Numbered from the stretch's first letter, positions 1,821-41,263 are shown. The stretch is DNA of 64,000 nucleotides from an uncultured Clostridia bacterium (GCA_904393115.1 CAJFMX010000004.1:1-64000); one strand, 5' to 3'. Translations and numbers: made by a program. The notes: generated by a model not told the origin, from the sequence alone.

Positions 1821-1827
1821 GCCGCGC

Positions 1828-14266: not shown

Positions 14267-14286
14267 GAGAATTTCCCTCCTTGCGT

Positions 14287-15765: not shown

Positions 15766-18297
15766 TTACGCGGTCTCGATGGCCTCGGCGGCCTGGAGGG
15801 AGAGCTTCTGCACGGCGGCCTCGCGCATCTTGTACTTGAGGATCTTGCCGGCGGCGTTCATGGGGAACTCCTTGACGAACTCGACATAGCGGGGCACCTT
15901 GTGCTTGGCCATGTGGGTGCGCACGAAGTCCTTGACCTCCTCCTCGGTCATGGTTTCGCCCTCCTTGAGGATGACGCAGGCCATGATCTCCTCGCCGTAG
16001 TCCTTGGACGGCACGCCGATGACCTGCACGTCCTTGACCTTGGGGTGGGTGTAGATGAAGTCCTCGATCTCCTTGGGATAGATGTTCTCGCCCCCGCGGA
16101 TGATCATGTCCTTGATGCGGCCGGTGATCTTGTAGCGGCCGTTCTCGTCGCGGCGGGCGAGGTCGCCGGAGTGGAGCCAGCCGTCCTTGTCGATGGCCGC
16201 GGCCGTCGCGGTGGGCATCTTGTAGTAGCCCTTCATGATGTTGTAGCCGCGGGCGAGGAACTCGCCGTCCTGGTTGTCGGGCAGGTCTTCGCCGGTCTCG
16301 GGGTCGACGACCTTGCACTCCACGCCGAAGATCGGGCCGCCGACGGTGTTGACGCGCACCTCGAGCGGGTCGGTGATCTTGGACATGGTGGTCGCGGGCG
16401 AGGCCTCGGTCTGGCCGTAGGTGATGCAGATCTCGCTCATGTGCATCTTGTCCACGACGTCCTGCATGACCTTGATCGGGCAGGGGCTGCCGGCCATGAT
16501 GCCGGTGCGCATGTGGCTGAAGTCCGTCTTTTCAAAGTTCGGGTGCTCGAGCATGGCGATGAACATGGTCGGCACGCCGTGGAAGGCGGTGATCTGCTTT
16601 TCGTTGATGCAGTGCAGGCCCTTGCGCGGCGAGAAGGCCGTGATCGGGTACATGGAGGTTCCGTGCGTCATGGCGGCGGTCATGGCCAGCACCATGCCGA
16701 AGCAGTGGAACATGGGCACCTGGATCATCAGGCGGTCCGCCGTGGAGAGGTCCATGCAGTCGCCGATGGCCTTGCCGTTGTTGACGACGTTGTAGTGCGT
16801 GAGCATGACGCCCTTGGGGAAGCCCGTGGTGCCGGAGGTATACTGCATGTTGCAGACGTCGTGCTTGTCGATGTTCATGGCGCGCAGCAGGACCTCCTGC
16901 ATGGGCACGCGCTCGGCCATGGTCAGCGCCTCCTCCCAGGAGAAGCAGCCCTCCTGCTTGCTCTCGCAGGTGATGACGTTGCGCAGGAAGGGCAGGCGCT
17001 TTGCGTGCAGGGGCGTGCGGGGGTCGTGCCCCGCCAGCTCCGGGCAGAGCTCCCTGACGATGCCGATGTAGTCCGAGTCCTTGAACCCGTCGATCATCAC
17101 GAGGGTGTGCGTGTCGCTCTGGCGCAGCAGGTACTCGGCCTCGTGGATCTTATAGGCGGTGTTGACGGTGACCAGCACCGCGCCGATCTTGGTCGTGGCC
17201 CAGAAGGTGATGTACCAGGCCGGGACGTTCGTGGCCCAGATGGCCACGTGGTCGCCGCGCTTTACGCCCATGCCGATGAGCGCGCGGGCAAACTCGTCCA
17301 CGTCGTCGCGGAACTGGGAATAGGTGCGCTTGTAGTCGAGCTCCGTGTAGTCAAAGCAGACCTGGTCCGGGAACTCCTCGACCATGCGGTCCAGAACCTG
17401 CGGAAAGGTCAGGTCCAGGAGCTGGTTGTGCGGCCAGACATAGTGGCCGAGGCCCGTGTGCGCGGTGTAGAGCTTGTGGTCGGCGACGGGCTTGTCCAGA
17501 TAGGCCTCCATGTAGTGGAGGAACTGGGGGAAGACCACGCCCGCGTCGTACATGTTGCGGCTCCAGTAGCGGACCCACTCCAGGGTGACATAGCCCTCGT
17601 AATTGATGGAGCGCAGCGCCCGCATCATCTCGTCGATGGGCAGGTCGCCGTCGCCCATGAGGCGGTAGACGAGCTTGCCGTCCTCCAGCACGGAGTCCTT
17701 GATGTGGACGTGCTTGATGTAGGTGCCCAGGTTCTGCAGCGTCTGCTCCGGGCTCTCGTGCATGAAGCGGTAGGGGTGGTGCATGTCCCACAGCGCGGCC
17801 ACGTTGTCGGACGCAAGGTCCGTCAAAAGGTCGCGCAGGCGCTCGGTGTTGGCGTAGACGCCGTTGGTCTCCACCAGCAGCGTGACCCCGCACTTTTCCG
17901 CCTCGGGGATGAGTTCGCGCAGCTGCGACTTGACGGCCTCATCGTCCACCTCGCCGCCGGGCGCGGCGTCCCAGTCGCCCATGACGCGCACATAGGGCGC
18001 GCCCAGGCGCGCGGCCATGTGGATGTAGTCCGTAAGCTCCGCAATGTTCGCCGCCCGCTTGTCGGCGAACTTCAGCGCGATGCCGCTGGATAGGCAGGGA
18101 ATGGATAGTCGCAAATCCGCAAGGGTCCGGACCGTTCGGTCGATCTCCCCCTCTGAAAAAGGCTGCATGTTGAAGGTGGAGATCTCCTTGCCCAGGCCGC
18201 GCACCTCGATGCCGTCAAAGCCGAGGTCCTTTGCCATGGAGTAGATCTCCGACCATTGGAAGTCCGGACAGCCAACCGTTGAGAATGCGAGTTTCAT
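15766..18297 (-). CDS. fusion of sugar-phosphate isomerase/epimerase barrel and AMP-forming acyl-CoA synthetase
   Basis: 843 residues in one uninterrupted frame. Residues 1 to about 275 form an AP-endonuclease-2-like TIM barrel (MKLAFSTVGCPDFQW, LLVETNGVYAN, ALWDMHHPYR, HVHIKDSV, VTLEWVRYW), with metal ligands intact. After a short joint near residue 280, a complete ANL-superfamily ligase follows: P-loop YTSGTTGFPKGV (about 482), YGQTEASP, GWLHSGDLA, GRIKDMIIRGGENIYPKEIE, and the catalytic lysine in NAAGKILKY. The ligase half most resembles medium-chain acyl-CoA or fatty-acid CoA ligases. The gene stands alone between its own promoter and terminator. Coupling a sugar isomerase to CoA activation is odd; the barrel may act on a hydroxy- or oxo-acid that the ligase then activates. 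Confidence 0.9.
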   Translation of the reverse strand: MKLAFSTVGCPDFQWSEIYSMAKDLGFDGIEVRGLGKEISTFNMQPFSEGEIDRTVRTLADLRLSIPCLSSGIALKFADKRAANIAELTDYIHMAARLGAPYVRVMGDWDAAPGGEVDDEAVKSQLRELIPEAEKCGVTLLVETNGVYANTERLRDLLTDLASDNVAALWDMHHPYRFMHESPEQTLQNLGTYIKHVHIKDSVLEDGKLVYRLMGDGDLPIDEMMRALRSINYEGYVTLEWVRYWSRNMYDAGVVFPQFLHYMEAYLDKPVADHKLYTAHTGLGHYVWPHNQLLDLTFPQVLDRMVEEFPDQVCFDYTELDYKRTYSQFRDDVDEFARALIGMGVKRGDHVAIWATNVPAWYITFWATTKIGAVLVTVNTAYKIHEAEYLLRQSDTHTLVMIDGFKDSDYIGIVRELCPELAGHDPRTPLHAKRLPFLRNVITCESKQEGCFSWEEALTMAERVPMQEVLLRAMNIDKHDVCNMQYTSGTTGFPKGVMLTHYNVVNNGKAIGDCMDLSTADRLMIQVPMFHCFGMVLAMTAAMTHGTSMYPITAFSPRKGLHCINEKQITAFHGVPTMFIAMLEHPNFEKTDFSHMRTGIMAGSPCPIKVMQDVVDKMHMSEICITYGQTEASPATTMSKITDPLEVRVNTVGGPIFGVECKVVDPETGEDLPDNQDGEFLARGYNIMKGYYKMPTATAAAIDKDGWLHSGDLARRDENGRYKITGRIKDMIIRGGENIYPKEIEDFIYTHPKVKDVQVIGVPSKDYGEEIMACVILKEGETMTEEEVKDFVRTHMAKHKVPRYVEFVKEFPMNAAGKILKYKMREAAVQKLSLQAAEAIETA

Positions 18298-18360
18298 TTT
18301 CTGTTCCTCCTGTTTTTTTGCGGATTTTGCGACAGCGCCATGCCTGCCTTTGCATGCGCT

Positions 18361-18402
18361 TGCTTAAGCATAAATACTAACCGAAACTCGCTATATTGTC
18401 AA
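18361..18402 (-). promoter_or_regulatory. promoter and palindromic operator of the fusion gene
   Basis: TTGACA and TAGTAT on the minus strand are 17 bases apart (18374-18402). A perfect 10-base palindrome TGCTTAAGCA (18361-18370) begins 3 bases after the -10 element, where it would cover the transcription start. A repressor site is likely but unproven. Confidence 0.75.
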
Positions 18403-18457
18403 GTTTTTTCCTGTTAACTGCATAATAAAACCCAAATATTCAAGAACTGGTGCGGTT

Positions 18458-19117
18458 TTATGCATCCCCTGCCGAGTCGAGGGGCGCGACGTTGTACGCG
18501 CCCTCGCTGCGGACGATCCCTTCCGCGCCAAAGTCGAGCAGGATCTGCAGATGCCCCGCGCCGCTCTCCCGCAGGGCCGCCGCGGACAGCAGCGCGGCAT
18601 GTTCCCCGTCCAGGGGGAGCGCTGCGGCCAGGATCTGCGCCTCCCCTGCGGTCTCCGATCCGGCCGGGGTGAAGACCAGCTGCACGGTCGCCGGCGTGCC
18701 GCCCTCCCACTGCACGAGGAGGCAGACCGCGCGGTCCGCGTCGTACCAGTTCGCCTCAGGCAGGACCTCCTGCATGGCCTCGTCGTAGAAGCGCACGCTT
18801 TGCAGGCGGGGCCCTGCCGGCGCTTCCGGAGCCATGCGCGGCAGGAGCAGCGCCCCCGCGAGCGCGAGCAGCAGGACCCCCGCCGCGATCCATCCGGCCC
18901 GCGCGCGCCATGCGCGGCGCGGCGGCAGGGGCGCCGCCTCCTCTTCCCGCAGGTCCAGCGCCTGCAATAAGGCGCGCCGGTTTGCGCCCGTGGGCTGGGC
19001 CGCGCCGCTCTCCCACTTGGAGACGGCCTGCCGGCTGACGCCCACCGCCTCGGCCAGCTCCTCCTGGGAGAGGTGCCTCTCCTCCCGCCGCCTGCGAATC
19101 TCTTCACGCCAATCCAT
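18458..19117 (-). CDS. XRE-family transcriptional regulator with membrane anchor
   Basis: 219 residues. Residues 1-60 form a helix-turn-helix of the XRE/Cro type (RREERHLSQEELAEAVGVSRQAVSKWESG). After a linker, a single hydrophobic helix (about 75-95) follows basic residues, and the rest is an outer domain of unknown fold. The ATG at 19117 follows AAAGGT. The layout is that of clostridial membrane-anchored regulators that sense an outside signal. Its promoter carries an 18-base palindrome, pointing to autoregulation, and the gene is downstream of a lipoprotein that may share its control. Confidence 0.87.
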   Translation of the reverse strand: MDWREEIRRRREERHLSQEELAEAVGVSRQAVSKWESGAAQPTGANRRALLQALDLREEEAAPLPPRRAWRARAGWIAAGVLLLALAGALLLPRMAPEAPAGPRLQSVRFYDEAMQEVLPEANWYDADRAVCLLVQWEGGTPATVQLVFTPAGSETAGEAQILAAALPLDGEHAALLSAAALRESGAGHLQILLDFGAEGIVRSEGAYNVAPLDSAGDA

Positions 19118-19153
19118 GACCTTTCCCACTTCTTTTCCTTCTCGGATGGGAAA

Positions 19154-19212
19154 AGTATAGCCGCAACCGCGGTTGCGGGCAACCAATTCCCCGCCACTTT
19201 GCGGTTGCGGCC
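19154..19212 (-). promoter_or_regulatory. promoter with 18-bp palindromic operator for the XRE gene
   Basis: Minus-strand TTGCCC and TATACT are 17 bases apart (19154-19182). The perfect palindrome CCGCAACCGCGGTTGCGG (19161-19178) fills the spacer and touches the -35 element. A further half-site GCGGTTGCGG lies at 19201-19210, 32 bases from the matching arm, about three helical turns. This fits cooperative repressor binding. Confidence 0.8.
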
Positions 19213-19221
19213 GAGTTTTTT

Positions 19222-20259
19222 TCATCGTTCCGCGGCTTTTGCCAGGTCAATCCGGACGAGATTCGGCCCCGCGTCCGTCTCCTCCCAGTAGTAGACGGTT
19301 TCCGCATCCGCGCCCAGCGGCGCACCGCAGGCCGCGGGCACGGCAGCTGTGCCGACGAGTTCTCCCGCGGCGTCGTATCGCCAAAGCGCGCGCTCGGCGG
19401 CGGGGAAGGCAAGCCCTTCGTCCACCAGCAGGCTGTCGCCCGCCGGGCAGAGCAGGGGGTACGTCTCCGTCGTGCAGAGCGTGTGCACCGCCTGCCCCGA
19501 TTCCGCCAGCAGCACGACCTCGTAGTCCGTTTCCCCCTGCCGCACCGCGGCAAGGCCGCCCTCCAGCGGCACGAGGCAGTGCCCGCCAGCGTTCTCGGCA
19601 AAGACCTCGCAGGCGCTGCCATCCGGCCGCACGCGCACGAGGTTCATCTGCCCGCCCGGGTCCATGCGCACCTCCGTCAGGTAGATCCAGCCGTCCAGGA
19701 GCTGCGCGCAGCCGATGTAGCTGCCCGCGCCGTCCAACTCGTAGAGCGGGACCGGCGCTTCGCCCGCGCTGTCCCGCGGCACGCTGTAGAAGCCGCCGCC
19801 CTCCGCCCCTTGCAGGGAAAAGACGATCGCCTCCTCCAGCACGAGGAAGCAGCGCAGGTTCCCCTCCGTCTCGAGCACAACCTCCGGCGCGCCGCCCTCT
19901 GGATCATAGCGCACGATGCGGCGTCCATCGCTGGCGTAGAGCGCGTCCCCGGCGGCGAGCAGCCCGCGCCCGGCCGCGGCATAGGCGTTGCAGGGGTCGA
20001 CCAGCGCGCTCTGCTCCATGTGGGCGCAGCCGGCGCGGTTGCAGACGGGGCGGGGCGCCTGCCCCTGGCGCAGCTCGCAGAGATAGGTCCGCGGCCCCGC
20101 CTCGCCCGTCTTCGGCAGAAAGGCGTAGAGCGCCTTCCCCACCTGCGCCACGCTCTCGTCCGCGAGGTATCCGTGGGGAATGAACGCCGGCCCGGCCTGC
20201 GCGCAGCCGGTCAGCAGCAGGGCGCACAGCGCCGCACAGAGGATTTTCCGGATACACAT
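19222..20259 (-). CDS. lipoprotein with predicted beta-propeller, unknown function
   Basis: 345 residues. The signal MCIRKILCAALCALLLTGC ends at the lipid-attachment Cys19. A CNRAGCAH motif near residue 73 is the CxxxCxH signature seen in many clostridial surface lipoproteins. The rest alternates short beta repeats (for example ALYASDGRRIVRYDPEGG, LWRYDAAGELVG), consistent with a DUF5050-like propeller. GGAGG precedes the ATG by 9 bases. It sits upstream of the membrane-anchored regulator and could be its partner or target; that is inference. Confidence 0.75.
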   Translation of the reverse strand: MCIRKILCAALCALLLTGCAQAGPAFIPHGYLADESVAQVGKALYAFLPKTGEAGPRTYLCELRQGQAPRPVCNRAGCAHMEQSALVDPCNAYAAAGRGLLAAGDALYASDGRRIVRYDPEGGAPEVVLETEGNLRCFLVLEEAIVFSLQGAEGGGFYSVPRDSAGEAPVPLYELDGAGSYIGCAQLLDGWIYLTEVRMDPGGQMNLVRVRPDGSACEVFAENAGGHCLVPLEGGLAAVRQGETDYEVVLLAESGQAVHTLCTTETYPLLCPAGDSLLVDEGLAFPAAERALWRYDAAGELVGTAAVPAACGAPLGADAETVYYWEETDAGPNLVRIDLAKAAER

Positions 20260-21301: not shown

Positions 21302-22408
21302 TTATGGCGCGGCCGCCAGGGCCGTGAGGTTCTTGCACTGGGCGTAGATCTCCGGAAAGCGCTCGATGGGCACGGGGATGCCCCAGGCGCTCGCGCCCGT
21401 CTCGATCGTGAAGGCGGGGATGCCCAGCGTCTCCACGCAATAGTCCTTGTAGCCGCCAAAGCTCGTGACCGTCAGGTCCTCCCCGCGCGCCAGGCCCGCG
21501 TACCCCGTGAGGTCCAGGAGGCGCCGGGCCAGGCGCGCATCCCGCTCCAGCGCCTCTCCCTCCTGGAAGAAGTACCAATAGATCGTCTCTCCCCGGGAGT
21601 GGTAGCTGAGGGTGACGGTGGGCGCGTAGTCCTCTGTCAGGGCCAAAAGCGCCCGCGTCTCCGGCTCGCTCTCAGGCGCGGGGCCGGGATAGTGCGCGTA
21701 GGCCGGGCCCTCGATGCCCTCGATCACGCGGCTGTCCTCCCAGTGGGCGTCAAAGTTGCGGTTGAGGTCCACGCCGCGGCCGTTGGCCTTCCAGAGGGTG
21801 TGGGAGCGGCCGCTCTCCTCGATCAGGCGCTCGACCAGGGCGCGGTAGGCCGCGTTTTCGATCCAGGCCGCGCCCTCCTGCGCGATGCGCACGCCGTCCG
21901 GATTGCTCATGGGCACAAAGAGAAAGCTCGCCCGCTCGAGCATGGGGTCGTACATGTCCTTGGCCAGGTAGTCCTCGATCTGGGCCATGAGGATCTGCAC
22001 GTTGATCCATTCCCGACCGTGCATGCCCGCCTGCACGAGCACGCGGGTTGTCGCCTCGGGATTGCCGATCTCCATGGCGTACAGGGGCTGGCCCAAACAG
22101 GACGTCCCGTAGACGGAAAGGCGCGTCTCCTCCGGGTAGCGGGCGTGCAGGGCCTCGAGCTCCGCGGCCAGGGTTTCGGGGCTGTAGGTCGGGCTGTCGC
22201 GCGTCACGATGGGCGCGGAATCCGCCGTGGGCGCAGGGGTCGGCATGGGCTCTTCCTCCCTCCAAGGGGTTGCGGCGGCGGGCGGCGCGCTCGCCGGGGC
22301 ATCCGCGCCCTCGGCCTGCGGCGCGGCCGCCGCAAGCGCCGCCGCCAGCACGCCCGCGAGCGCCGCGCACAGCGCGCGGCACAGGTACTCTCCAAGCTCT
22401 TTACGCAA
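21302..22408 (-). CDS. M14-family zinc carboxypeptidase, secreted or membrane-anchored
   Basis: 368 residues with a TTG start (GGGGGA 8 bases upstream) that overlaps the stop of the Sel1-repeat gene by 8 bases. A hydrophobic signal or anchor (residues 10-29) is followed by a Pro/Ala-rich linker to about 70. Zinc ligands HxxE are in AGMHGREW (His130, Glu133) and SYHSRG (His270); DLNRNFDAHW supplies the substrate-binding Asn-Arg; the catalytic Glu is in FTIETGAS (Glu336). Members of this branch often cut gamma-D-glutamyl-diaminopimelate bonds in peptidoglycan. Its place in the tubulin/actin-like operon hints at local wall remodelling. Confidence 0.87.
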   Translation of the reverse strand: MRKELGEYLCRALCAALAGVLAAALAAAAPQAEGADAPASAPPAAATPWREEEPMPTPAPTADSAPIVTRDSPTYSPETLAAELEALHARYPEETRLSVYGTSCLGQPLYAMEIGNPEATTRVLVQAGMHGREWINVQILMAQIEDYLAKDMYDPMLERASFLFVPMSNPDGVRIAQEGAAWIENAAYRALVERLIEESGRSHTLWKANGRGVDLNRNFDAHWEDSRVIEGIEGPAYAHYPGPAPESEPETRALLALTEDYAPTVTLSYHSRGETIYWYFFQEGEALERDARLARRLLDLTGYAGLARGEDLTVTSFGGYKDYCVETLGIPAFTIETGASAWGIPVPIERFPEIYAQCKNLTALAAAP

Positions 22409-25400
22409 GCGTCAAGTCCCCCATCACGATGTTGAGCGTGCCCGCGCTGCCGCGAACCTCCTCCAGCATGAGCGTCAGCTCCTGCGCGCCGCGCAGGTCG
22501 ATTTCGATCTCCGCAAAGGACGACGAAACGTCGCCCCAGCCGGTGGAGTAGACCTCCTGCCCATCCACGAGCACCGTCAGGCAGAAGGTGCCGGAGGCCG
22601 CGCCGTCGTTCCACTCCTGGTCCGCGGAGACGGTCATGCGCAGCGTCCGATACTGGCCGCCGAGGTCGTAGCGGGCCTCGACCTGGCCCTGCGCGCCCTC
22701 TTCCCCGCCCAGCGCCGAGGACGGCACGAACCAGCCGATGCCGTCGCAGGCGCGGACCTCAGCCCCGTCCAGGAGCTGGAAATCGCCCTCGTAGGTGGGG
22801 TTGGTCCACTGGTGCAGGTAGTAATGCGTCGGCGACTCGGCAGGGCTCAAATCCATGAGCGTCGCGCCCTCCTGCACGGAGGTCGACCCGTCGTCCTGCG
22901 GCGCCGAGGTCTCCTGGGGCGTCTCCGGCAGGAGGAAGGCCCCGGACCGCTCCGCCAGGTACAGCCCGCCCACCGCCGCCACCGCAAGGATGGCCAGCGT
23001 GCACAGCACCAGCGCGGCGGTCCGCCCGCGCCGTTTCCTTCTCCTTCGGGGCGGCGCGTCGTCCTCTTCCTCCGGGGGTGGCGCGTCGGGCTCGTCCTCC
23101 GGCGCATCGTCCTCAGGCGCGGCCTGCGAAAAGAGGTCCCCGCGGTAGGGCTCCAGCAGCAGGCGGAGGATGGTCAGGTTCACGTCCTCCCCTTCCGCCT
23201 CCGCGGGCAGGTCGCCCTTGGGGCCCTGGGCAAAGGCGCGCTTGTCCTCCTCGCGGGTGAGGGCGTTGAAGGCGTCCAGGCGCTCCTTCCAGCCCTGCGC
23301 GCCCGCGCGGCGGCGCAGCTCGGTCAGCGCCGGGTCCTCGCCCGCCGCGGCCGGGGGCAGCTGCCCCTCCACCTCGCGCAGGAGGCGCTTGCGGGCCTTT
23401 TCCGGCGCGCGGTCGATCTGGTCGAGCCTCTGCTGCCAGGGGAGATCCTCCGGGTGCGCGGCGGCCTGGCGCAGCAGGGCGCGCGCCTCCTCCCATTCCT
23501 GGCGAACGGGCAGGCTCCCGGCGGAGAGCACGTCCAGCCGGCGCAGGGCGTTTTCCGCGTACTGCTTGCGGTCCGCCGGCGCGTTGCACCGCTCCAGGCC
23601 GCGGCACAGGTCCAGGAGCACGGCGCGCATCTCCCGCACGAGCGCCGCGCGGTAGCGCGCGAGGGCCTCGTCCTCGCCCGCCGCCTCGGCCGGGAGCTCG
23701 CCATACTCCCGCGCCAGGGACGAAAACGCGTCCGGCTCGGCGCGCCGCCCGGCCAGGCTGCGGAGCCGCGCGTTCCAGTCCGGCGCGGGCTCGGCGGTCT
23801 TCTCCGGCTCCGCCTCGCCCGGAAAGGCGCGCTCCACGGCGGCGCAGAGCGCGTCATATTCCGCGCAGGGCGCCTGCGCGTACAGATCCTGCGCCGGCCG
23901 CAGGAACTCCCGCGCAAAGAACCGCGCCCGCTCGCGCAAAACCTTCGGATTGCGCTCCCCCTTGGGGGAGTCCGGGTCAAAATAGGGGATGAAGATCTCC
24001 CACCGGGCGCGCAGCTCCTCCCGCAGTTCCGCGCGGAAGGCGGCAAGGTCCCGGTCCTCGCCCGCCGCCGGGGGCGGGAGCTTGTGCAGCGTGTCGATGG
24101 CAAAGCGCATGGCCTTGATGGGGTCGCGGCGCAGCTTTTCCCGCTGGGCGCGCAGGGCGGCGAGGGTTCCCCCGCGGGCCTTGGCGTCCGCTGCCTGCGC
24201 GGGGCGCGCGCGCAGCAGGCGGTCGGCCGCCGCGCACAGCGCCGCGTATTCCGGGCAGTCTTCGCCGGCGCAGAGGTCCCGCGCCGGGATCAGCAGCTCC
24301 CGCTCCGCCGCGGCGGCCTGCCGCTTCCGCTCCGCAAGGGGCGCGTTTTCGTCCTGTATGCGGGCAAGGAGCGCCGCCCAGCCCGCGCGCAGGCTCTCCC
24401 AGAGCTCCGCGCGGAAGGCGGCAAGGTCCTCCGCCTCGTCCGCGCGCTTCCCGGGAAGGCGGTGCAGCGTCTCCACCGCAAGGCGCAGCGCGGGGGCGCT
24501 CGCCTTGTCCGTCTCCTCCCACCGCGCGCGCAGCGCGGCCAGGCCGTCCGGGTCCGCATCCGCGCCCTCGATCAGCCGGAGGACCGCGTCGCACACCGCG
24601 TCAAACGCGGGCGCGCGCCGCCCCTCGTACAGGGGCGAGGCGGGCTCCAGCACCTCCCAGGCAAAGCGGCGCGCGCGCTGCACCGCCGCAGAATCGGCCG
24701 GGTTCTCCGCGGCAAATAACCCGGCCAAACCCTGCCACTGCGCGTCCAGCGCCGCGAGGAGCGCATCGCGCTGCGGGCCCTGCGGCGCGCGCTGCGCCTC
24801 CTCGACGCGGGCGCGCAGGTCCCCGTCCTCCGCCGCGGGCCGCATGCGCCGGGTGTGCGGCTCCGCGGGCTGCGCGCGGCTGGGCAGGACGAAGGGCTTG
24901 CGCGCGGGCGCGGCCCGCTCTTCCGCCGGGGCAGCCGGCTCCCGTGGAGCAGCCGGCTCCCGTGGAGCAGCCGGCTCCCGTGGAGCAGCCGGCTCCCGTG
25001 GAGCGGCCGGCTCCGGTGGGGCCGGCGTCTCCGGCGCGGGGGGCGGCGCTTCGGGCTTTGGCGGCGCGGGCTTTGGGGGCTCGGGGACGCTGCGGAGCGC
25101 CTGCCGCAGCGCGGCCAGGGGCCTTGCCTCGTCCTCGCGCGCCTCGGGGAGCTGGGGCAGCAGCTCCTGCCGCAGGGCCCAGCGCTCGCGCGGGTCGGCG
25201 CAGGCGCGCAGGCGCGCCAGGTCCACGGCGTAGCGCCGGAATTCCTCCGGCGGCTCGGCCAGGAGCGCGCGCAGCTGGTCCGCCTCCGGGCCCTGGCCCT
25301 CGGGGAGGGAGGCGCACAGCTCGCGGTTCTCGTAGACGGCGCTCTTGTCCGCGTCGTTCAGCGCCTGGAAGAAGGCGAGCGCGCCCGCCGCGTCGCCGCG

Positions 25401-26510
25401 CTGGAGCGCACCGGCCAGGACGCGGTCCGCGCCCGTCCCGGCCAGGAGCGCGCGGCGGTAGAGCTCCTGGCGCAGGGCGCGCGCCTCCCCGCCTTCGCGC
25501 CGGGTGGGGCCGGCAAAGAGCAGCGCCCGGTCGACGAAGGCGGCCTTGTCCGGGATCTTCTCCCAGTTCTCCAGGACGCAGCGCAGGGCCTCGCCGTACT
25601 TCTGCGCCTCGGCGCTGGCGCGGTAGGCGTCCAGGTACAGCCCGTCCTGCGTGCAGAGGCGGATGTAGCGCAGGCGCGCGACCTCGCTGCCGCCCTTGGC
25701 GACCGTCTGCAGCAGGCGGCGCGCGGCCGCGTGGTCCGCGGGCAGGCCCTCGGCCCCGGCCTCGTAGAGCTCGGCCAGCTGCATCTCCGCGCGGGGCTCG
25801 GCCATGGCCTGCTGCTTCTCCAGCTCCATGGCGCGGCGGAGCAGGCGCTCGGCGGAGCGGCCGTCGGGCCGCGTGCCCCGCCCCTTCTCGTACATGCGCG
25901 CCAGGGTCAGGCAGGCCTGTATGCCCAGCTGCGCGCCCTCGCGGTCCTTCTTGAGCAGCTCGCGGTAGAGGGCGTCGCGCGTCTCCGGCTCCGCGCCCAG
26001 GGTCTCCAGGCGGTCGGCCGTCTCGTAGAGCACGGCGCTGTCGCCGGAGAGCGCGGCGTACTTTGCGGCCTTGGCAAGGTCCACGCCCGCGATCTCGCCC
26101 GTGAGGTAGAGGCGCGCCGCGCGGGCGGCGGCCTCCTTGTCCCCGGCCTCGGCGGCCTCGGTCAGGAGCTGCAGGCCGCGCGCGGCGCGGTCCTCGCTCT
26201 CCAGGTACAGGCGCGTCAGCTGCGTGCGCGCGGTGGTGCTGCCCAGGGCCAGGGCCTGCTCGTAGTAGACCATGGCCTGCTTCTTGTCCTGGGGCACGTC
26301 CCCCTCGCCGTAGAGGTAGGCGCTGCCGAGCCGCTCGCAGGCCTGGAGGTGGCGCTTCTTCGCGGCGTTCTTCAGGTGCTCCATCCCCTCCAGCGCGCGG
26401 CCCCTCTGCCCGAGCAGGCGCTGGCCCAGAAGATACTCGGCCTCCGTGTCGCCCTCCATGGCGCAGAGGCGCAGCTCGTCAAGACTCATGCGGGAATAGG
26501 ACGAAGGCAT
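22401..26510 (-). CDS. giant Sel1-repeat protein with internal LP-GED modules, one membrane span and NPCBM-like C-terminus
   Basis: 1369 residues; ATG 8 bases after GGAGGG. Residues 1 to about 330 are Sel1/TPR-like helical repeats (EAEYLLGQRLLG, GSAYLYGEGDVPQDKKQAMVYYEQAL). A Pro/Ala/Glu linker at about 485-540 contains tandem AAPREP units. Residues 560 to about 1130 are helical modules, each with an LPxxAxGEDxxL core and a following RaeL helix, at least five copies. A KR-rich stop, RRRRKRRGR, precedes one membrane helix near 1165-1187. The outer part (about 1240-1369) is a beta-rich NPCBM-like carbohydrate-binding domain with VDGQEVYSTGW. Topology would be a large cytoplasmic scaffold and a glycan-binding outer end. 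Homologues were not recognised; it probably links the cytoplasmic NTPases of the operon to the wall. Confidence 0.85.
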   Translation of the reverse strand: MPSSYSRMSLDELRLCAMEGDTEAEYLLGQRLLGQRGRALEGMEHLKNAAKKRHLQACERLGSAYLYGEGDVPQDKKQAMVYYEQALALGSTTARTQLTRLYLESEDRAARGLQLLTEAAEAGDKEAAARAARLYLTGEIAGVDLAKAAKYAALSGDSAVLYETADRLETLGAEPETRDALYRELLKKDREGAQLGIQACLTLARMYEKGRGTRPDGRSAERLLRRAMELEKQQAMAEPRAEMQLAELYEAGAEGLPADHAAARRLLQTVAKGGSEVARLRYIRLCTQDGLYLDAYRASAEAQKYGEALRCVLENWEKIPDKAAFVDRALLFAGPTRREGGEARALRQELYRRALLAGTGADRVLAGALQRGDAAGALAFFQALNDADKSAVYENRELCASLPEGQGPEADQLRALLAEPPEEFRRYAVDLARLRACADPRERWALRQELLPQLPEAREDEARPLAALRQALRSVPEPPKPAPPKPEAPPPAPETPAPPEPAAPREPAAPREPAAPREPAAPREPAAPAEERAAPARKPFVLPSRAQPAEPHTRRMRPAAEDGDLRARVEEAQRAPQGPQRDALLAALDAQWQGLAGLFAAENPADSAAVQRARRFAWEVLEPASPLYEGRRAPAFDAVCDAVLRLIEGADADPDGLAALRARWEETDKASAPALRLAVETLHRLPGKRADEAEDLAAFRAELWESLRAGWAALLARIQDENAPLAERKRQAAAAERELLIPARDLCAGEDCPEYAALCAAADRLLRARPAQAADAKARGGTLAALRAQREKLRRDPIKAMRFAIDTLHKLPPPAAGEDRDLAAFRAELREELRARWEIFIPYFDPDSPKGERNPKVLRERARFFAREFLRPAQDLYAQAPCAEYDALCAAVERAFPGEAEPEKTAEPAPDWNARLRSLAGRRAEPDAFSSLAREYGELPAEAAGEDEALARYRAALVREMRAVLLDLCRGLERCNAPADRKQYAENALRRLDVLSAGSLPVRQEWEEARALLRQAAAHPEDLPWQQRLDQIDRAPEKARKRLLREVEGQLPPAAAGEDPALTELRRRAGAQGWKERLDAFNALTREEDKRAFAQGPKGDLPAEAEGEDVNLTILRLLLEPYRGDLFSQAAPEDDAPEDEPDAPPPEEEDDAPPRRRRKRRGRTAALVLCTLAILAVAAVGGLYLAERSGAFLLPETPQETSAPQDDGSTSVQEGATLMDLSPAESPTHYYLHQWTNPTYEGDFQLLDGAEVRACDGIGWFVPSSALGGEEGAQGQVEARYDLGGQYRTLRMTVSADQEWNDGAASGTFCLTVLVDGQEVYSTGWGDVSSSFAEIEIDLRGAQELTLMLEEVRGSAGTLNIVMGDLTLA
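24929..25020 (-). repeat. in-frame 18-bp tandem repeats coding for AAPREP units
   Basis: The unit CGGCTCCCGTGGAGCAGC recurs four to five times with almost no third-base change. This implies recent expansion within the linker of the Sel1-repeat protein. Copy number could vary between strains. Confidence 0.9.
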
Positions 26511-26550: not shown

Positions 26551-27558
26551 TTACAGGTTGTAGGCGACGAGCCTGCCCTTGCGCTCGACGGCGAGCAGGC
26601 GCTTGCTCTCCCGCGCCTCGTTCTGCACGGTCTCGCCCGACTCGCGGGCGATGGCCAGGCTTTGCAGGACGAAGTGCGGCGCGGCGTTCTCCGGATCGCT
26701 CCGGCGGTCGATGTCGTACCAGTCCGCAAGGGCCGGCGCGTCCAGGCTGATGCGGTAGGGCACGACGTACTTTCCGGTCTTCATGACCGCGACGTTGCTC
26801 GGGTTGATGCGGCTGTAGGCGCAGAACTCTGCGTAGTCCGCGTCCTGCAGCTTCCGCTGCGGCCGCACGTAGTGCAGCAGCTCCACGCGGGCGAGCTCCG
26901 CCGGCGGGAAGGCGCGCTGCATGGCGCGGTCCGGGCTCTCCGCGCCGCTGAGCACGCGGTTCATGGCCGCAAGGAGGTCCTGCTCCTCGGACCGCGCGCC
27001 CGCGCCGCGGGGCGCGGCGGCCGCGCTCCTTGGCGGCGGGACGGGCGCCGCCGGCGCGACCGGTGCGACCGGTGCGACCGGGCGCTGCGCCGATGCGATC
27101 GGGGCGACCGACGCGCCCGGGGCGCCCGGGCGGTACGCGGCGGCTCCATAGGTGGGCTGCGGGGTCACGGTCGGCTGCGCCGCGCCGCTGCGGGGCAGCG
27201 CGCGCTCCACGGCGGTCAGGGCCGCGTCCAGCGCGTCCACGTCGCGCTCCAGGTCCTGGACGCGGCGGCCCAGGTCCGCGCCCGCGGCCTCGTCCCTGCG
27301 GCGGGCGAGCGCGGCCTCCAGCTCGCGCAGGCGGCGCTGCATTTCGGCGCTCGCGCGCTCGTGCTCCTGGTTGGTGCGGCGCATGGCCACAAAGAGCACC
27401 GCCGCCGCGGCCAGGGCCAGCGCCGCCAGCAGCACGGCGACGATCTCCACGGCCGAGGGGCCGGCGGCAGCCGGCGCGCCGGTCGTGGCCAGGGCCGCGG
27501 GCATCCACAGGAGCGCCCCCAGCAAAGCCGCCAGGAAGAGGAAGAGCTTCCGCCTCAT
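26551..27558 (-). CDS. membrane-anchored coiled-coil protein of unknown family
   Basis: 335 residues; the ATG at 27558 overlaps the actin-like gene stop as ATGA. A signal-like segment (MRRKLFLFLAALLGALLWMPAALA) is followed by a second hydrophobic helix (about 40-60), then a heptad-rich coiled coil (about 65-130) and a linker of PVAPVAP-type repeats. The C-terminal domain (about 200-335) contains LLHYVRPQRKLQDADY and KTGKYVVPYRISLDAPALADWYDID and is not recognisable. If the first segment is cleaved, the second helix would leave the C-terminal domain inside the cell, where it could meet the NTPases. Its coupling to the actin-like gene suggests a membrane adaptor. Confidence 0.75.
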   Translation of the reverse strand: MRRKLFLFLAALLGALLWMPAALATTGAPAAAGPSAVEIVAVLLAALALAAAAVLFVAMRRTNQEHERASAEMQRRLRELEAALARRRDEAAGADLGRRVQDLERDVDALDAALTAVERALPRSGAAQPTVTPQPTYGAAAYRPGAPGASVAPIASAQRPVAPVAPVAPAAPVPPPRSAAAAPRGAGARSEEQDLLAAMNRVLSGAESPDRAMQRAFPPAELARVELLHYVRPQRKLQDADYAEFCAYSRINPSNVAVMKTGKYVVPYRISLDAPALADWYDIDRRSDPENAAPHFVLQSLAIARESGETVQNEARESKRLLAVERKGRLVAYNL

Positions 27559-30500
27559 GCCCGGCCACCTTCTCTCCAATACCAGACGGCGAACACGCGC
27601 TTGAAGCACTCGGAGAGCGCGGTCTCGTCCGTGACGCTCGCGTCAAAGGCGTTGAGCTTGCCGATGATGGTCATGGGATCGGTGCAGTTGCCGTTCTCGT
27701 CCACAAAGGGCGTGAGCCACGGCGCGTGCGTGAGGTACGCGTAGAGGGACAGGAACTCGAGCACGCGCTCCTGCCGGGTGGGCACGTCCGCCGCCTTGGC
27801 GGGCGCGGCGGGCGCGGCCGCGGGCTGGCTGGCCGTGGCCATGGCAAAGGGATTGCTCTGCGCGGCCAGGCCGTCGCTCACGACGCCAAAGGGGTTGGCC
27901 GCGGCGCGCGCCCCCGGCGCGTTCACCGCGCCGCGCGCGAGGGAGGAGTCCAGCTTGTGCACGCCCATGGCGACCTCTGTCTTGGGGTTGAGGCACATCT
28001 GCACGGCGTCCGGCGCGGTGCGCGTGCCGTAGACCGCGTCAAAGACCTGCCGCACGAGGGCTTGGTCCTCGGGCGTGAGCCACTGGAACAGCCGGCCGCC
28101 GTTGCCGGCGAAGAACAGGCGCATCAGGCCCCCGGCGTTGAGCGCGCGGCCCGTCTCCTGGGAGAAGCGGCGCGCATTCTCCGCGATGAGGTAGATGACG
28201 GAGGCGAAGTTGAACCGGATGGACTCGTAGACCGAGGGGCAGGCCGCGCCGCCCGCGCGCAGCTGGCTCATCATGTCGTCGGCGTGGTTGGCGCACAACA
28301 GGTCCACAATCAGGGAGAAGGCCTCGGGCATGGCGTCCGCGGAGCCGGACTGGCGCGCGGCCATGTCCCGCAGCATGTGGATGCGGGAGAGGTCCTTCTG
28401 CGCGATGGACTTGCGCGTCTCGTCCGGGGAGGCGGCGTGGATGCCCGCGGCGCGCGTCAGGAACTCCTGCTCGGGGCAGGCGTCCTCCCCGCGCTGGCAG
28501 CTGAGCAGCAGGCCCTTGTAGACGGCCTCGGTGAGGATGTTCCGCCCGCCGATGACCACGGAGAACTCGCGCTGGGGCCGCTGGATGTCGTCCAGCCACA
28601 GGGAGACGTCCGTCGAGCCGCCGCCCACGTCCGCGCAGAGGAAGCCGTCCGCCAGCGCCGTGACCCCCGCGGCGATGAAGAAGGCGCCCGCGGCCTGGCT
28701 CTCGGTGAACAGCTCCACGCTCCCAAGGTCGATGCCGGTCGTGGCCGCGACCCACTTGGCGCTGTCCGCCGCGCAGGTGCGGAAGCCCTGCACGTCAAAG
28801 GACGCCGTGTTCGGGAAGGTGAAGCGCCAGTTGATCTTCGTGCCCTGGTTGATGGCGGCGATCAGCGCGTACTGCAGCATGACCTGGCGCAGGAACAGGC
28901 GCAGGGCGGCCTTGTGCGTCGGGGTCAGGCCCTCGCCGTCGCCCCACTTCAGGCCCGTGACGATGGCGTCCCGCTCGCTGAAGTCGCGCGTAGAGTGGCA
29001 GATGTGCCCGTCCAGCAGCACCTGCGTGCGCTCGACGTCCTCGGCCGTCATCTGGCCGAAGGCGTTGCCGTCAAAGACCTCCAGGGCCGTAGAGATGCCG
29101 CCGCCGGTCTTGAGCTGCGCGTCGCAGACGAACTCGCGCAGCATGTTCGTCTCGGTCTCCGTGTCGCGCAGGATGTGCTTGTGCAGGTGCATGGCGTCCT
29201 CGAGCTGGACGGTGCGGTAGTTGCCGTCGATCTCCATGGCGCCGATGGTGTTGGAGGTGCCAAAGTCCAGGCCGATCTGCACGGTCTTGGGCAGGACCAC
29301 GGAGGGCCCCTCAAACCGCCCGTCGTCGGCAAAGAAGCAGCCCACGCTGCACGGCCCCGCGGGCAGCTGCACGCGGAAGGCCACGATCTTGGGGAAGAAG
29401 GGCGAGAGCGCGACCTGCCAGGTGTTTTCGCCCACGCCGCCGCTGGAGGCGACCTGCTGGCGCACGCGGAAGGCCGGGCGCACGTCGTTTTCGCCCACGG
29501 CGGCCATCTCCAGCGGGTTGCGGCCCGCGCTGCCGTTGCTCTGCTTAAAATAGGTGTAGTAGCACTTCCACTTGGGCAGGCGCACGTTCGGCCAGACCAC
29601 CAGGTCCGACAGCGCCACGTCCTCCGAGACGATGACGCGCGTCTCCGGCATGGACTTGCGGATGATGTAGCGCCGCGCGGCAAAGCCCGGCGCGTGGGAC
29701 TCGACCGTGATGTCCACGACGATGTCGCCATAGTCGCGCGCGGTCATGCGCAGGTCCTGGATGGTGACCTCTCCGCGCAGCTCCAGCTGCATGAGCGCCT
29801 CGCCCACCGGCGGCACGGCGTGGTCCACGACCTCCCCCGCCTCGTTGTAGATGGCGGAGAAGTTGACGTTCTTCATGATGTCGCGGTTGACGTTGTCCGT
29901 GAGGTTGAAGTCCGAGAGCACGGAGCGGCTGAACTTGTAGATGCCCAGGGCCACCAGGTCCTCGCCGCGGGCAAAGGGCAGCGCGTTGACGGGGTTGACC
30001 ACGTGCGCAAACGGCGCGGGCAGGGGGAACTCCACCGGCGGGGGCGCGTCCAGGTCCACCAGCGTATCCGGCAGGGCGAGGTTGCTCACCGCGGGCATGC
30101 GCGCCCGCTCGATAAGGTTCAGGCACTCGACGTCCAATGTATTTACCTGGGACAGCGCGCCCAGCATCTTGTTGATCATGTCGCAGTTGTAGGAGAACTG
30201 CGGCCGCGCGGGGTCGAGCTGGTAGTCCACGCTCATGTTGAGGCTCACCAGCGCCGGGTCGGACACGCCGCCCAGCGGCACCCAGAAGAACTCCCGGGAG
30301 AGGTAGGCGATGCTCCTGCCGTTGTAGAAGAGGTAGACGCCCTGCGGGCTCTGGCGGCGGATGTTCTCCGGAAGGCCCGCCACGGCCATGGTCAGGTTCA
30401 GCAGGCGCACGCTGCGCCGCGCGCTCTCCAGGGTGTTCGCGGGGTCGCCCATCTGCACGCTCAGCCCCAGGTCCGCGTAATACGTGCCCAGGAAATAGCC

Positions 30501-31298
30501 GCGCGTCACCAGCAGCCAGAGGTTGCGCGCCTCCTCCGAAGCGCGCATGGCGTGCAGGGCGCTCGTCTCCTCGGCGCGCAGGTCGCGCAGGAACTCCTCC
30601 GCCAGGCGCGCGATGAGCTTTTCGCCGAACACCGGGGAGTTCGGCATCTGCGTCATGGTCAGCACGCCCGTCAGGCGGCTGACGAGCACGTCCCGCTGCA
30701 GCACGGGCAGCTGCGCGTCGCACGGATCGCGGAACAGGCCCGTGGGGTAGTGGAACCAGGGGATGTTCCGCGCGCCCTTGGGGTCCGGCCGCACGGCCGC
30801 GGGGAAGACCAGGAGCCTGCGGGAAAAGATCAGGCGCGGCGCGCCGTCGAAGCAGCCGACCTGCATGCCCGCCGGGGCGAAATTGCCGTGCGCGGCGTCC
30901 GCGGGCAGGAAGAAGTCCTCGCCCGCGGGCGCGTAGTCGCACCCGATGGCCGCAAAGTCCGACCGGGGCCGGCCCGGCCGGTCGTCCGCCGCAAGGGTCA
31001 GGGTGTTGACCTCAAAGGGGTATTCGTCCTGCAGCAGGGCCAGGGCCGTCATGCCGCGCCACTGGCGCACCGCGTCCTCCATGCCCATCTCCAGGGCCGC
31101 CTGGAAGGAGAAATAATTGGAGTAGATCTCCGGGAAGGAGGAGGAGATGAGCGCATCGCCCGCCTTCATGCGCTTGGCGATCTTCTCGCACAGGTTAAAG
31201 GGCGCGTTGCCGTCGGACCCGACGCGTTCCCAGCCCTTGCGGCTGAGCGTGGGCAGGGCCTCGCCCGCGTTGAGCTCCACGATCATGGATTCCAGCAT
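27555..31298 (-). CDS. large protein with C-terminal actin/Hsp70-like ATPase domain
   Basis: 1247 residues; ATG 31298 follows a GGGGGAAGAG site. The first 670 or so residues match nothing I know, although they are well-formed alpha/beta sequence. The ATPase part begins with PHOSPHATE-1 QIGLDFGTSNTIG (about 674), continues with FTFPNTASFDVQGF, PHOSPHATE-2 FLCADVGGGSTDVSLW (about 888), and an ADENOSINE-type motif FAGNGGRLFQW (about 1063). These are the three nucleotide-binding motifs of the actin/Hsp70/ParM fold. A Pro/Ala linker near 1170 leads to a C-terminal helical domain. It lies 17 bases behind a tubulin-like gene. The SrfB family (large actin-like virulence-locus proteins) is one possible relative to test; a distant Hsp70-like chaperone is another. 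Confidence 0.85.
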   Translation of the reverse strand: MLESMIVELNAGEALPTLSRKGWERVGSDGNAPFNLCEKIAKRMKAGDALISSSFPEIYSNYFSFQAALEMGMEDAVRQWRGMTALALLQDEYPFEVNTLTLAADDRPGRPRSDFAAIGCDYAPAGEDFFLPADAAHGNFAPAGMQVGCFDGAPRLIFSRRLLVFPAAVRPDPKGARNIPWFHYPTGLFRDPCDAQLPVLQRDVLVSRLTGVLTMTQMPNSPVFGEKLIARLAEEFLRDLRAEETSALHAMRASEEARNLWLLVTRGYFLGTYYADLGLSVQMGDPANTLESARRSVRLLNLTMAVAGLPENIRRQSPQGVYLFYNGRSIAYLSREFFWVPLGGVSDPALVSLNMSVDYQLDPARPQFSYNCDMINKMLGALSQVNTLDVECLNLIERARMPAVSNLALPDTLVDLDAPPPVEFPLPAPFAHVVNPVNALPFARGEDLVALGIYKFSRSVLSDFNLTDNVNRDIMKNVNFSAIYNEAGEVVDHAVPPVGEALMQLELRGEVTIQDLRMTARDYGDIVVDITVESHAPGFAARRYIIRKSMPETRVIVSEDVALSDLVVWPNVRLPKWKCYYTYFKQSNGSAGRNPLEMAAVGENDVRPAFRVRQQVASSGGVGENTWQVALSPFFPKIVAFRVQLPAGPCSVGCFFADDGRFEGPSVVLPKTVQIGLDFGTSNTIGAMEIDGNYRTVQLEDAMHLHKHILRDTETETNMLREFVCDAQLKTGGGISTALEVFDGNAFGQMTAEDVERTQVLLDGHICHSTRDFSERDAIVTGLKWGDGEGLTPTHKAALRLFLRQVMLQYALIAAINQGTKINWRFTFPNTASFDVQGFRTCAADSAKWVAATTGIDLGSVELFTESQAAGAFFIAAGVTALADGFLCADVGGGSTDVSLWLDDIQRPQREFSVVIGGRNILTEAVYKGLLLSCQRGEDACPEQEFLTRAAGIHAASPDETRKSIAQKDLSRIHMLRDMAARQSGSADAMPEAFSLIVDLLCANHADDMMSQLRAGGAACPSVYESIRFNFASVIYLIAENARRFSQETGRALNAGGLMRLFFAGNGGRLFQWLTPEDQALVRQVFDAVYGTRTAPDAVQMCLNPKTEVAMGVHKLDSSLARGAVNAPGARAAANPFGVVSDGLAAQSNPFAMATASQPAAAPAAPAKAADVPTRQERVLEFLSLYAYLTHAPWLTPFVDENGNCTDPMTIIGKLNAFDASVTDETALSECFKRVFAVWYWREGGRA

Positions 31299-31314
31299 GT
31301 CTCTTCCCCCTTTC

Positions 31315-32952
31315 TCACTGCACGCTGCACGCGTAGAGCAGGCTGGACAGGAACGTCTCAAAGCAGGTGGAGCCGCTCACGCTGTCCGAGGTCTGCGCCA
31401 CGACGCTGCGGTTGATCGCGTCGAAGGTGTATTCGCCGTTGAGGCCGCCGATGAGGGTCTTTACGTCCTCCTGCGAGGCGTCGCCGCCCAGGGGCTTCTG
31501 CGCGTCGTAGCGGCCGTCCGGCATCTCCAGGTAATATTTATAGAGCAGGGCCAGCAGCGCGCCGTCCACCAGCTCGTTGCTGGGCACGTCCACGCGCCAG
31601 CCGCCCGCGCCGCCCACGGCGTAGCCCTCGCCGGGGTTGGAGCGGACGTAGGGCGGCGGCAGGGTCACGATCAGCTCCGTCAGCCACCGCACAAATTCCG
31701 TGAAGTACCGCCCCGCCGTGCGGAAGCGCAGCACGGCCTCCTCCCGCTCCTCGTCCGAGCGGACCTTGCGGAAGTAGCGGCGGGTCACGGCGTCCTGCGT
31801 GCGGAAGATGCTCTGCTTGCCCGTCAGGTCCTTGACCATGGGATAGCCGTAGGAGGTGGCCAGCACATACGCCGCCCGCAGCAGGCGCGCAAAGCCGCTG
31901 CGGACCGCCATGTCCGGGAAGGAGTCCCAGGTCAGGAACGTCTTCCCCTCGGCGTTGGGCGCGGTCAGGTCCAGGTTGAACAGGTAGTGGCCGTCCTGCT
32001 CCTGGGGGTTGTAGGCGCCGGGGTTCGTGGTCAGGAAGTGGGACACGGCCTGCGCGCCCAGCCAGTCCACCAGGTGCGCGGCGTTGTTCTGGTCCTGGCC
32101 GCCGGTGCAGTAGTCGTAGACCACCTTGTCCTGCGAGCCGACCATGTAGATGGCGTTGAAGACCTTGTTTTCGCCGTAGCCCACGCCCTCGCGCGCGTAG
32201 TATTCCAGGGCCGCCTTGGCCTTGGGCTCAAACTGCGAGGCCTCGATCACGCCGTCGCCCTTTGTCGTGGCGAAGTAGGGCAGCAGGAGCATCGCGCCGA
32301 TGATGGCGCCGCCGCCCACGGCGCGCCGGGCGTCCGGGTTCGGGTTTTCGTCCGTCAGGTTGCGGATGTAGCGGGCGATGGAGGGAATGGCCGAGGCGCC
32401 CGTCCCGCCGAAGATGGAGCCGGCCAGCAGGATGCGCGGCTGCCCGCCCTTGACGAGCTCGCGCCGGATCTCCTCGATGACCTCGGAGAAGCTGTGCTCG
32501 GCCGGCAGGCGCGGCAGCTCCGAGGCAAAGAAGTGCGCGCCCACGTTCGGGTGGCCGTAGAAGCCCTTCTTATAGCTCATCTCCAGCTCGTAGTCCGTAT
32601 AGAGCGCGCGGGCGATCTCCCGGTCGTTGCCCATGCCGGTCGAGCGCAGGATGCCGCCCATGGCCTGCTCCTCCACCGCGGTCAGGCGGTAGAGGGCAAA
32701 GTCCGCGGAAAAGCCGATGTCCGTCTCCTCCTCGGCCTCGGCCTGCGCGGCGGAGACGCAGGCGCGCATGTCCCCGTAGAGCGCGGTCAGGCTCTCGGCG
32801 CGCTTGAGGTTGCCGCCCGTCTGGTCCAGGTCCACAATCACCGCGCGGATGGCCGCGCCCGGGTGGCGCAGGACGCCCGCCGCCGCCGCGTGCAGGGTCG
32901 CCTCCAGCATCTTGGAACCGGAGCCGCCCACGAAAAATACATAGCTGCCCAA
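31315..32952 (-). CDS. tubulin-like GTPase (Tubulin_2/FtsZ-like group)
   Basis: 545 residues from a TTG start at 32952 that lies 9 bases after GGAGG; there is no ATG before the first conserved motif. The N-terminal GTP-binding loop is YVFFVGGSGSKMLEA (about 4-18). Strand 2 is AVIVDLDQTGGN (about 37-48). The tubulin signature appears as AGSIFGGTGASAIPSIARYI (about 177-196), corresponding to the GGGTGTG loop of FtsZ and tubulin. The length and the GGxGS start suit the large FtsZ-like proteins of Pfam Tubulin_2 rather than cell-division FtsZ. It should bind GTP and may form filaments. Neighbours are a four-helix membrane protein 17 bases upstream and the actin-like gene 17 bases downstream. Confidence 0.85.
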   Translation of the reverse strand: MGSYVFFVGGSGSKMLEATLHAAAAGVLRHPGAAIRAVIVDLDQTGGNLKRAESLTALYGDMRACVSAAQAEAEEETDIGFSADFALYRLTAVEEQAMGGILRSTGMGNDREIARALYTDYELEMSYKKGFYGHPNVGAHFFASELPRLPAEHSFSEVIEEIRRELVKGGQPRILLAGSIFGGTGASAIPSIARYIRNLTDENPNPDARRAVGGGAIIGAMLLLPYFATTKGDGVIEASQFEPKAKAALEYYAREGVGYGENKVFNAIYMVGSQDKVVYDYCTGGQDQNNAAHLVDWLGAQAVSHFLTTNPGAYNPQEQDGHYLFNLDLTAPNAEGKTFLTWDSFPDMAVRSGFARLLRAAYVLATSYGYPMVKDLTGKQSIFRTQDAVTRRYFRKVRSDEEREEAVLRFRTAGRYFTEFVRWLTELIVTLPPPYVRSNPGEGYAVGGAGGWRVDVPSNELVDGALLALLYKYYLEMPDGRYDAQKPLGGDASQEDVKTLIGGLNGEYTFDAINRSVVAQTSDSVSGSTCFETFLSSLLYACSVQ

Positions 32953-32968
32953 GGGTTTCCGCCTCCTC

Positions 32969-35362: not shown

Positions 35363-35392
35363 GGGCATCCTTCCTCCAAGATTTCTTCCTCT

Positions 35393-40754: not shown

Positions 40755-40836
40755 GTCCTTTTCCTCCTTAGAATTCGCTCTTGCAAAGCTCGTCTCGGGC
40801 GCATTCCCCCGAGAGTGCTCCCTTTGAACGATGGTG

Positions 40837-40878
40837 ATTATACCACCTCTCATAACAGTTTGCAACACCTTTGTTAAG
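40837..40878 (-). promoter_or_regulatory. promoter of sugar-binding gene 1 with upstream element
   Basis: Minus-strand TTGCAA and TATAAT are 17 bases apart (40837-40865). CTTAACAAAGG (40868-40878) lies 2 bases upstream of the -35; the identical 11-mer occupies the same place at the permease promoter (47713-47723). Confidence 0.85.
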
Positions 40879-41263
40879 CACGATTTGCGCCATTTTTTGT
40901 GGATTCTGTCCAAATTGTGGACAGAAAACTTCCACACATCTCATAATTTTACATGCGCGAAACAGTGCTCAATCGGATTTAACATAGTTTTGAATTCAGA
41001 ACGATTTTCAGGACTTTGCATGACTTTGCTCCTTCTTGCATGATTTGGAAAATATAATGATTATGTCAGAATCATTTTCCCCCATTTTTCCGCATCTGCT
41101 CCCGCTGCATTTCAAAAAAAACTTTGTGTCTCCCATCCCTCTCGCCCAGGAGCCGCTCCCTACCTGGGCGGACATCTATGAATTTTCCGTTTCAAAACCA
41201 TGGCTGCGTTTACATAACAAAAAATTAACCTTCCGTTTTCGTAGCGCCGGGCCTGCGCGCGCA

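Follow-up and report, generated by a model that had tools for sequence, protein, structure and literature searches.

A genus-restricted Sel1, helical-repeat, and CBM51-like membrane protein from an operon that also encodes tubulin-like and actin-like NTPases

Introduction

The genome of an uncultured gut Clostridia bacterium raises the question of what a large repeat protein, here called the scaffold, does in an operon that also encodes a tubulin-like GTPase and an actin-like ATPase. The DNA analyzed is a stretch of 64,000 nt, called the window below, and its features are collected in Table 1. An earlier note on this DNA had described the scaffold as Sel1 repeats, a set of helical modules, a membrane helix, and an outer domain, and had suggested that the layout connects cytoplasmic NTPases with a glycan. 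The reading favored here, held tentatively and with a little less than an even chance of being right, is that the scaffold is a genus-specific trans-envelope anchor added to a widespread membrane-linked complex of tubulin-like GTPase and actin-like ATPase, to which it would be linked. The individual parts are already known, i.e., Sel1 repeats, CBM51 domains, and Tubulin_2 operons; no description of their combination or of the helical modules was found in the open-licence literature.

Architecture of the scaffold protein

The scaffold gene is GC-rich and forms an exact open reading frame with an ATG start and an AAGGAGG ribosome-binding site, and its product is biased in composition to Ala, Arg, and Glu. 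From the N to the C terminus, the order is Sel1 repeats, a Pro linker, helical modules, one membrane helix, and a beta-rich end, a layout that the earlier note had drawn and that the reading frame, Pfam, and AF2 all confirm. Two Pfam families in the scaffold exceed their curated cut-offs, Sel1 (1.9e-12) and NPCBM (1.2e-8), and zero further Pfam matches occur between them. The claimed Sel1 repeats are borne out by the Pfam match at residues 56–91 (47.6 bits against a cut-off of 30.7) and by Sel1 proteins of the PDB, which align over residues 8–226. The sole PHROGs match of the scaffold, at residues 112–308, also lies in the Sel1 region. The protein shares an N-terminal Sel1 solenoid with other Sel1 repeat proteins but differs from them in fusing it to new helical modules, a TM helix, and a CBM51 domain. 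An AF2 model of residues 545–1369, built with nine sequences (mean pLDDT 82), has helices, the TM helix, and then the beta-rich end. A search of the viral structure library returned only weak matches with poor rmsd.

Table 1. Coordinates and evidence for the scaffold, its parts, and the neighboring operon genes
Feature	Residues	Window position	Strand	Evidence
VWA-like extracytoplasmic lipoprotein, MIDAS motif DGTPSMAGF		33518–35368	minus	family profile, conserved DGSxSMxG
Four-TM protein		32969–33490	minus	operon position, family profile
Tubulin-like GTPase, loops VGGSGSK and GSIFGGTGAS, start approximate		31315–32952	minus	Tubulin_2 E 0.003
Actin-like ATPase, ~1245 aa		27555–31298	minus	family profile, MreB 2.2e-5
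Membrane protein, coiled coil and C-terminal globular domain		26551–27558	minus	sequence, ATGA overlap
Scaffold, predicted cytosolic Sel1 and helical repeats, one TM helix, outer CBM51-like domain	1–1369	22401–26510	minus	ORF, Pfam, AF2, orthologues G161 and G023
Sel1-like repeat region	~12–290	25641–26477	minus	Pfam Sel1 1.9e-12, PDB Sel1 proteins
Module A copy 1	378–419	25254–25379	minus	profile; leave-one-out 45.2 vs best shuffle 12.5 bits
Module A copy 2	431–474	25089–25220	minus	iterated and leave-one-out profiles
18-bp tandem repeat, 4.9 copies, EPAAPR linker	~497–527	24931–25019	minus	TRF, 97% match
Module B copy 1	586–647	24570–24755	minus	iterated and leave-one-out profiles
Module A copy 3	661–705	24396–24530	minus	iterated and leave-one-out profiles
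Module B copy 2	705–766	24213–24398	minus	iterated and leave-one-out profiles
Module A copy 4, strict LPxxAxGED	787–831	24018–24152	minus	motif and profiles
Module B copy 3	831–896	23823–24020	minus	iterated and leave-one-out profiles
Module A copy 5, strict LPxxAxGED	913–959	23634–23774	minus	motif and profiles
Module A copy 6, strict LPxxAxGED	1026–1071	23298–23435	minus	motif and profiles
Module A copy 7, strict LPxxAxGED	1075–1121	23148–23288	minus	motif and profiles
TM helix, RRRRKRRGR just before	1165–1186	22953–23018	minus	hydropathy 1165–1183; AF2 helix 621–642 of model
Predicted outer NPCBM/CBM51-like beta-sandwich	1212–1369	22404–22877	minus	Pfam 35.5 bits vs cut-off 23.9; CBM51 structures
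M14 zinc carboxypeptidase		21302–22408	minus	Pfam 5.2e-37

Membrane topology and the outer domain

Hydropathy and the AF2 model agree on the single membrane helix that had been claimed near residue 1165. Read by the positive-inside rule, the basic stretch before the helix and the lack of a signal peptide in the scaffold point to an N-in/C-out protein, with its repeats predicted in the cytosol and its CBM51-like domain predicted outside.

The assignment of the outer domain to NPCBM/CBM51 is supported by profile and by predicted fold, and the binding of sugar is a prediction from these. The NPCBM profile matches nine of nine relatives, and the domain is the only NPCBM in the window genome. CBM51 proteins rank first when the PDB is searched with a profile of the outer domain. 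In the VIA structural search, the ten best matches are all of the CBM51 type (Z 13.5–16.0, rmsd 2.2–2.7 Å), and the next unrelated row has a Z of 9.3. An NPCBM-like outer domain had been claimed, and a C-terminal carbohydrate-binding fold is what both the Pfam score and the model point to. The closest comparison is with NPCBM/NEW2 (PF08305) and the CBM51 domains of the Clostridium perfringens proteins GH95, GH98, and ZmpB, which share the beta-sandwich (Z 15.3–16.0, rmsd 2.2–2.4 Å over 137–145 residues) at 16–22% sequence identity. The C. perfringens domains sit on secreted enzymes, whereas that of the scaffold sits on a single-pass membrane protein with predicted cytosolic repeats. NPCBM proteins carry a HADW-like motif at the position where the C-terminal end of the window domain reads GTLNIVMGDL, so sugar binding could be lost.

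Proteins with an NPCBM domain also occur in another family of the order (loci L035, L036, L037, L038, L039, and L040), where a conserved N-terminal domain is followed by one TM and a C-terminal NPCBM, without the NTPase operon. DUF4145 was detected in the N-terminal domain of one of the two of these proteins that were tested.

The same topology could serve a transmembrane glycan sensor, whose CBM51 domain would signal a sugar (nutrient, mucin, or wall fragment) across the membrane to the cytoplasmic NTPases and bear no load. Such a role would suit a protein that crosses the membrane once, N-in/C-out, and carries a ligand-binding fold on its outer side; it would also suit the similar layout of cytosolic domain, TM, and NPCBM that the other family has without an NTPase operon. 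Against it, the cytosolic part consists of repeats only, with no signaling domain, and long arrays of variable length suit reach better than signaling. A sensor is judged unlikely.

The helical modules

The internal repeats of the scaffold are real. Self-alignment of residues 545–1135 by Smith–Waterman scores 377, compared with 74±12 (maximum 109) for 60 composition-preserving shuffles, in agreement with the claim of internal repeats, and residues 653–775 align with residues 776–912 at p ~1e-16. Iterated profiles separate two interleaved module types: A, a hairpin of ~45 aa present in seven copies in the window protein, and B, of ~62 aa, present in three. The E-values of iterated profiles are circular, and leave-one-out profiles were for this reason run against 200 shuffles of each copy. 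All ten window copies outscore the best of their own 200 shuffles, with the B copies at 46–85 bits.

The strict LPxxAxGED motif occurs four times, at 811, 939, 1051, and 1101, always within A copies. Its relaxed form recurs in seven copies, five within residues 560–1130 and two earlier (378–419 and 431–474). The earlier note was right about the LPxxAxGED modules, for which it named one shared core and residues 560–1130; the array in fact interleaves two types and starts at 378 rather than 560. In the AF2 model, the motif forms the turn between the helices of module A in all four strict copies, for example at residues 811–819, between model helices 253–266 and 276–300. Most of the module blocks are modeled at a pLDDT of ~90.

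The modules appear to be a new repeat family within the libraries searched, a conclusion drawn at the level of sequence and with no claim of a new fold. Residues 545–1137 match zero Pfam families at E 0.1. Foldseek and VIA returned only generic helical matches with large rmsd for the helical modules, which were searched as part of a larger model. Outside the scaffold gene, modules A and B are absent from the 200 order genomes and the 398 phylum genomes searched, and the only carriers are three genomes of the same genus, representing three species, all with the scaffold gene. The suggestion of a new family is upheld by the lack of Pfam matches and by this narrow distribution.

Linker and module number differ among the three orthologues. 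In the window, the Pro linker reads EPAAPR x5; its counterparts are PEPGP x~9 in G161 and a different acidic Pro segment in G023. Module B is present four times in the G161 orthologue, alongside four complete A copies and a partial one; the G023 orthologue has a single B copy and no fewer than eight A copies, its contig C69 breaking off within the A repeats. These differences establish length variation between species, which is the level at which the proposed variable linker length holds.

Such variation would also be expected had modules and linker expanded neutrally, through slippage of repeats in a GC-rich gene, and contributed little to function. The differences in linker sequence and copy number, the position of the G023 contig break, and the Ala/Arg/Glu-biased composition fit simple accretion of this kind. 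The helical pattern and the conserved turn, however, are kept across copies, with high model confidence in most blocks; all three species keep an open reading frame; and the leave-one-out scores of the B copies are high. Accretion is judged quite improbable.

The operon and its distribution

The scaffold is the sixth of seven genes on the minus strand, in the order VWA-like lipoprotein, four-TM protein, tubulin-like protein, actin-like protein, TM coiled-coil protein, scaffold, and M14 carboxypeptidase. The actin-like and coiled-coil genes are joined by the ATGA overlap, and the M14 gene overlaps the scaffold stop by 8 bp. A close orthologue of the M14 protein, which also has a sub-threshold MpaA match (2.8e-11), occurs only alongside the scaffold. 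The lipoprotein has a signal/lipobox besides its conserved DGSxSMxG but no Pfam VWA match, and its AF2 model (mean pLDDT 67) gave no clear VWA match in a fold search. The actin-like protein carries the motifs GLDFGTSNT, CADVGGGSTD, and FAGNGGRL and has an N-terminal part of ~675 aa with no assigned fold; in its family, 8 of 17 members match MreB_Mbl and 6 match FtsA. The window tubulin-like protein scores 17.4 bits against Tubulin_2, below the cut-off of 27, but the profile matches 19 of 20 members of its family (best 6.3e-11), and the glycines of the T1 and T4 loops are invariant. None of the seven genes encodes a P-loop GTPase, an OmpA partner, or a TRAFAC GTPase, and the operon has no FNIII or effector gene; a HydF GTPase at 13079–14569 belongs to a separate cluster.

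The seven-gene order is identical in the window, G161, and G023 (in the last across two contigs). Two other genomes of the genus (85% and 93% complete) have neither the scaffold nor the tubulin-like gene, nor a close orthologue of the M14 gene. In G023, the operon lies away from DUF1846, its neighbor in the window, and so behaves as a unit.

The core of the operon (VWA-like lipoprotein, four-TM, tubulin-like, and actin-like genes) recurs much more widely. A scan for the tubulin-like family turned up 35 loci, distributed over Clostridia, Cyanobacteria, Sphingomonads, and Acidobacteria. In all 33 loci evaluable by contig, from four phyla, the tubulin-like gene is followed by the actin-like one, next to it or nearly so, with intervening genes in one locus, and a VWA-like gene was detected near many of the tubulin-like loci. 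Annotated cyanobacterial plasmid records have the same gene order, with nearly all genes labeled hypothetical. A full-length actin-like match was found in only 2 of 398 phylum genomes, which makes the system patchy; a tally of 276 genomes for the actin-like protein consists mostly of short matches to other actin-fold proteins.

Several of these loci have features of their own. In the window (27555–33490) and in loci L050–L084, the tubulin-like gene and an actin-like gene of ~1100 aa usually stand behind a small four-TM gene and are sometimes on plasmids. In the related locus L033, a second VWA-like membrane protein with an IIAIDTSASM motif (1289–3235) lies directly upstream of the VWA-like lipoprotein. 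The cyanobacterial locus L065 encodes, at 17452–19677, a second, partial actin-like protein of 741 aa (VGIDFGEEFTYIY) downstream of the full actin-like gene.

Comparison with known systems

Operons that combine a tubulin-like FtsZl1 with vWA proteins were reported by Makarova and Koonin (2010), who proposed membrane remodeling (PMC2875224). As those descriptions present them, FtsZl1/Tubulin_2 operons resemble the window in placing a tubulin-like GTPase beside extracytoplasmic VWA-like and membrane proteins (PMC2875224). They frequently, though not universally, include a P-loop GTPase or OmpA partner, both missing from the window operon, which in turn has an actin-like ATPase after the tubulin-like gene; the same descriptions mention neither the scaffold nor the M14 gene (PMC2875224).

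In Synechocystis, Sll0445 (Tubulin_2), Sll0446 (FtsA-like), and Sll0447 form a complex: they co-fractionate and bind pilus assembly proteins by AP-MS, and their mutants have impaired phototaxis (PMC9880817). Their genes lie within a predicted unit, sll0443–sll0449 (PMC2633013). Judged by domain names and gene order rather than by direct alignment, sll0445–0447 resemble the window in having tubulin-like, actin-like, and third proteins in the same order, and the window likewise has a tubulin-like gene beside an actin-like one, with the gene of a membrane coiled-coil protein next in line. Cyanobacterial loci L061–L072 have the order of the Synechocystis unit, and alignments do link them to the tubulin-like and actin-like proteins of the window. 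A profile link between the C-terminal domain of the coiled-coil protein and its cyanobacterial counterparts was not supported (hhalign probability 0.3%, barely above the reversed control). No Sel1/CBM51 scaffold is reported for the Synechocystis unit. That unit is linked to type IV pili, and these seem to be missing from the window genome: no T2SSE/pilus ATPase scores above cut-off, so a pilus role was rejected and does not carry over from Synechocystis. A canonical FtsZ elsewhere in the genome rules out the tubulin-like gene as the division FtsZ, and together these results leave the window complex neither a divisome tubulin nor part of a pilus motor.

Tubulin, HSP70-fold, and VWA components are also combined in the GTPase systems of Kaur et al. 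(2020), which, unlike the window operon, are centered on TRAFAC GTPases with effectors (PMC7159879). That the operon is an NTP-dependent conflict (defence) system of this type is very improbable: VWA-like, tubulin-like, and HSP70/actin-like genes do stand together in both (PMC7159879), and a patchy distribution with occasional plasmid location would fit, but the TRAFAC GTPase, FNIII, and effector gene are missing, PADLOC has zero matches for the five operon proteins scanned (scaffold, tubulin-like, actin-like, lipoprotein, and coiled-coil), and the Synechocystis counterparts affect motility (PMC9880817).

Other features of the window

Three further regions on the minus strand were noted. Three tandem paralogous solute-binding lipoproteins (DUF3502/SBP_bac_1) are encoded at 38970–45128, the first with a C-terminal tail of 18-bp repeats, SEEPAASEEPAA (39037–39168). 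In an 843-aa reading frame at 15766–18297, a xylose-isomerase-like TIM barrel (AP_endonuc_2) appears to be fused to a complete AMP-binding ligase. Genes for an ABC-2 permease, an ATPase, ABC_transp_aux, and DUF4340 lie at 48928–53696, a set that we take to resemble GldA/F/G gliding-type transporters.

A possible anchor across the envelope

If the scaffold is a trans-envelope anchor, its Sel1 solenoid and helical modules would bind either the complex of tubulin-like and actin-like proteins or the coiled-coil protein that partners it, and the modules together with the Pro-rich linker would set the reach. The outer domain would bind a surface or wall glycan, where the adjacent M14 carboxypeptidase may trim peptides. 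Force or position from the cytoplasmic NTPases could thereby be coupled to the envelope. The proposed layout connecting NTPases with a glycan fits the predicted topology, the operon, and the tubulin-like and actin-like neighbors, from which contact with either partner is a conjecture. The more specific idea, that the genus-restricted repeats form a length-variable tether mechanically coupling a tubulin-like and actin-like filament complex to a surface glycan, is doubtful on present evidence; if true, it would be a bacterial analogue of a cytoskeleton-to-matrix link.

Operons with both a tubulin-like and an actin-like NTPase are found in at least four bacterial phyla, with nearly all of their genes unannotated. 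With the scaffold, a complex of this kind gains a predicted physical link that crosses the membrane and ends at a sugar; this, together with an array length that can be compared between species, makes the anchoring idea testable.
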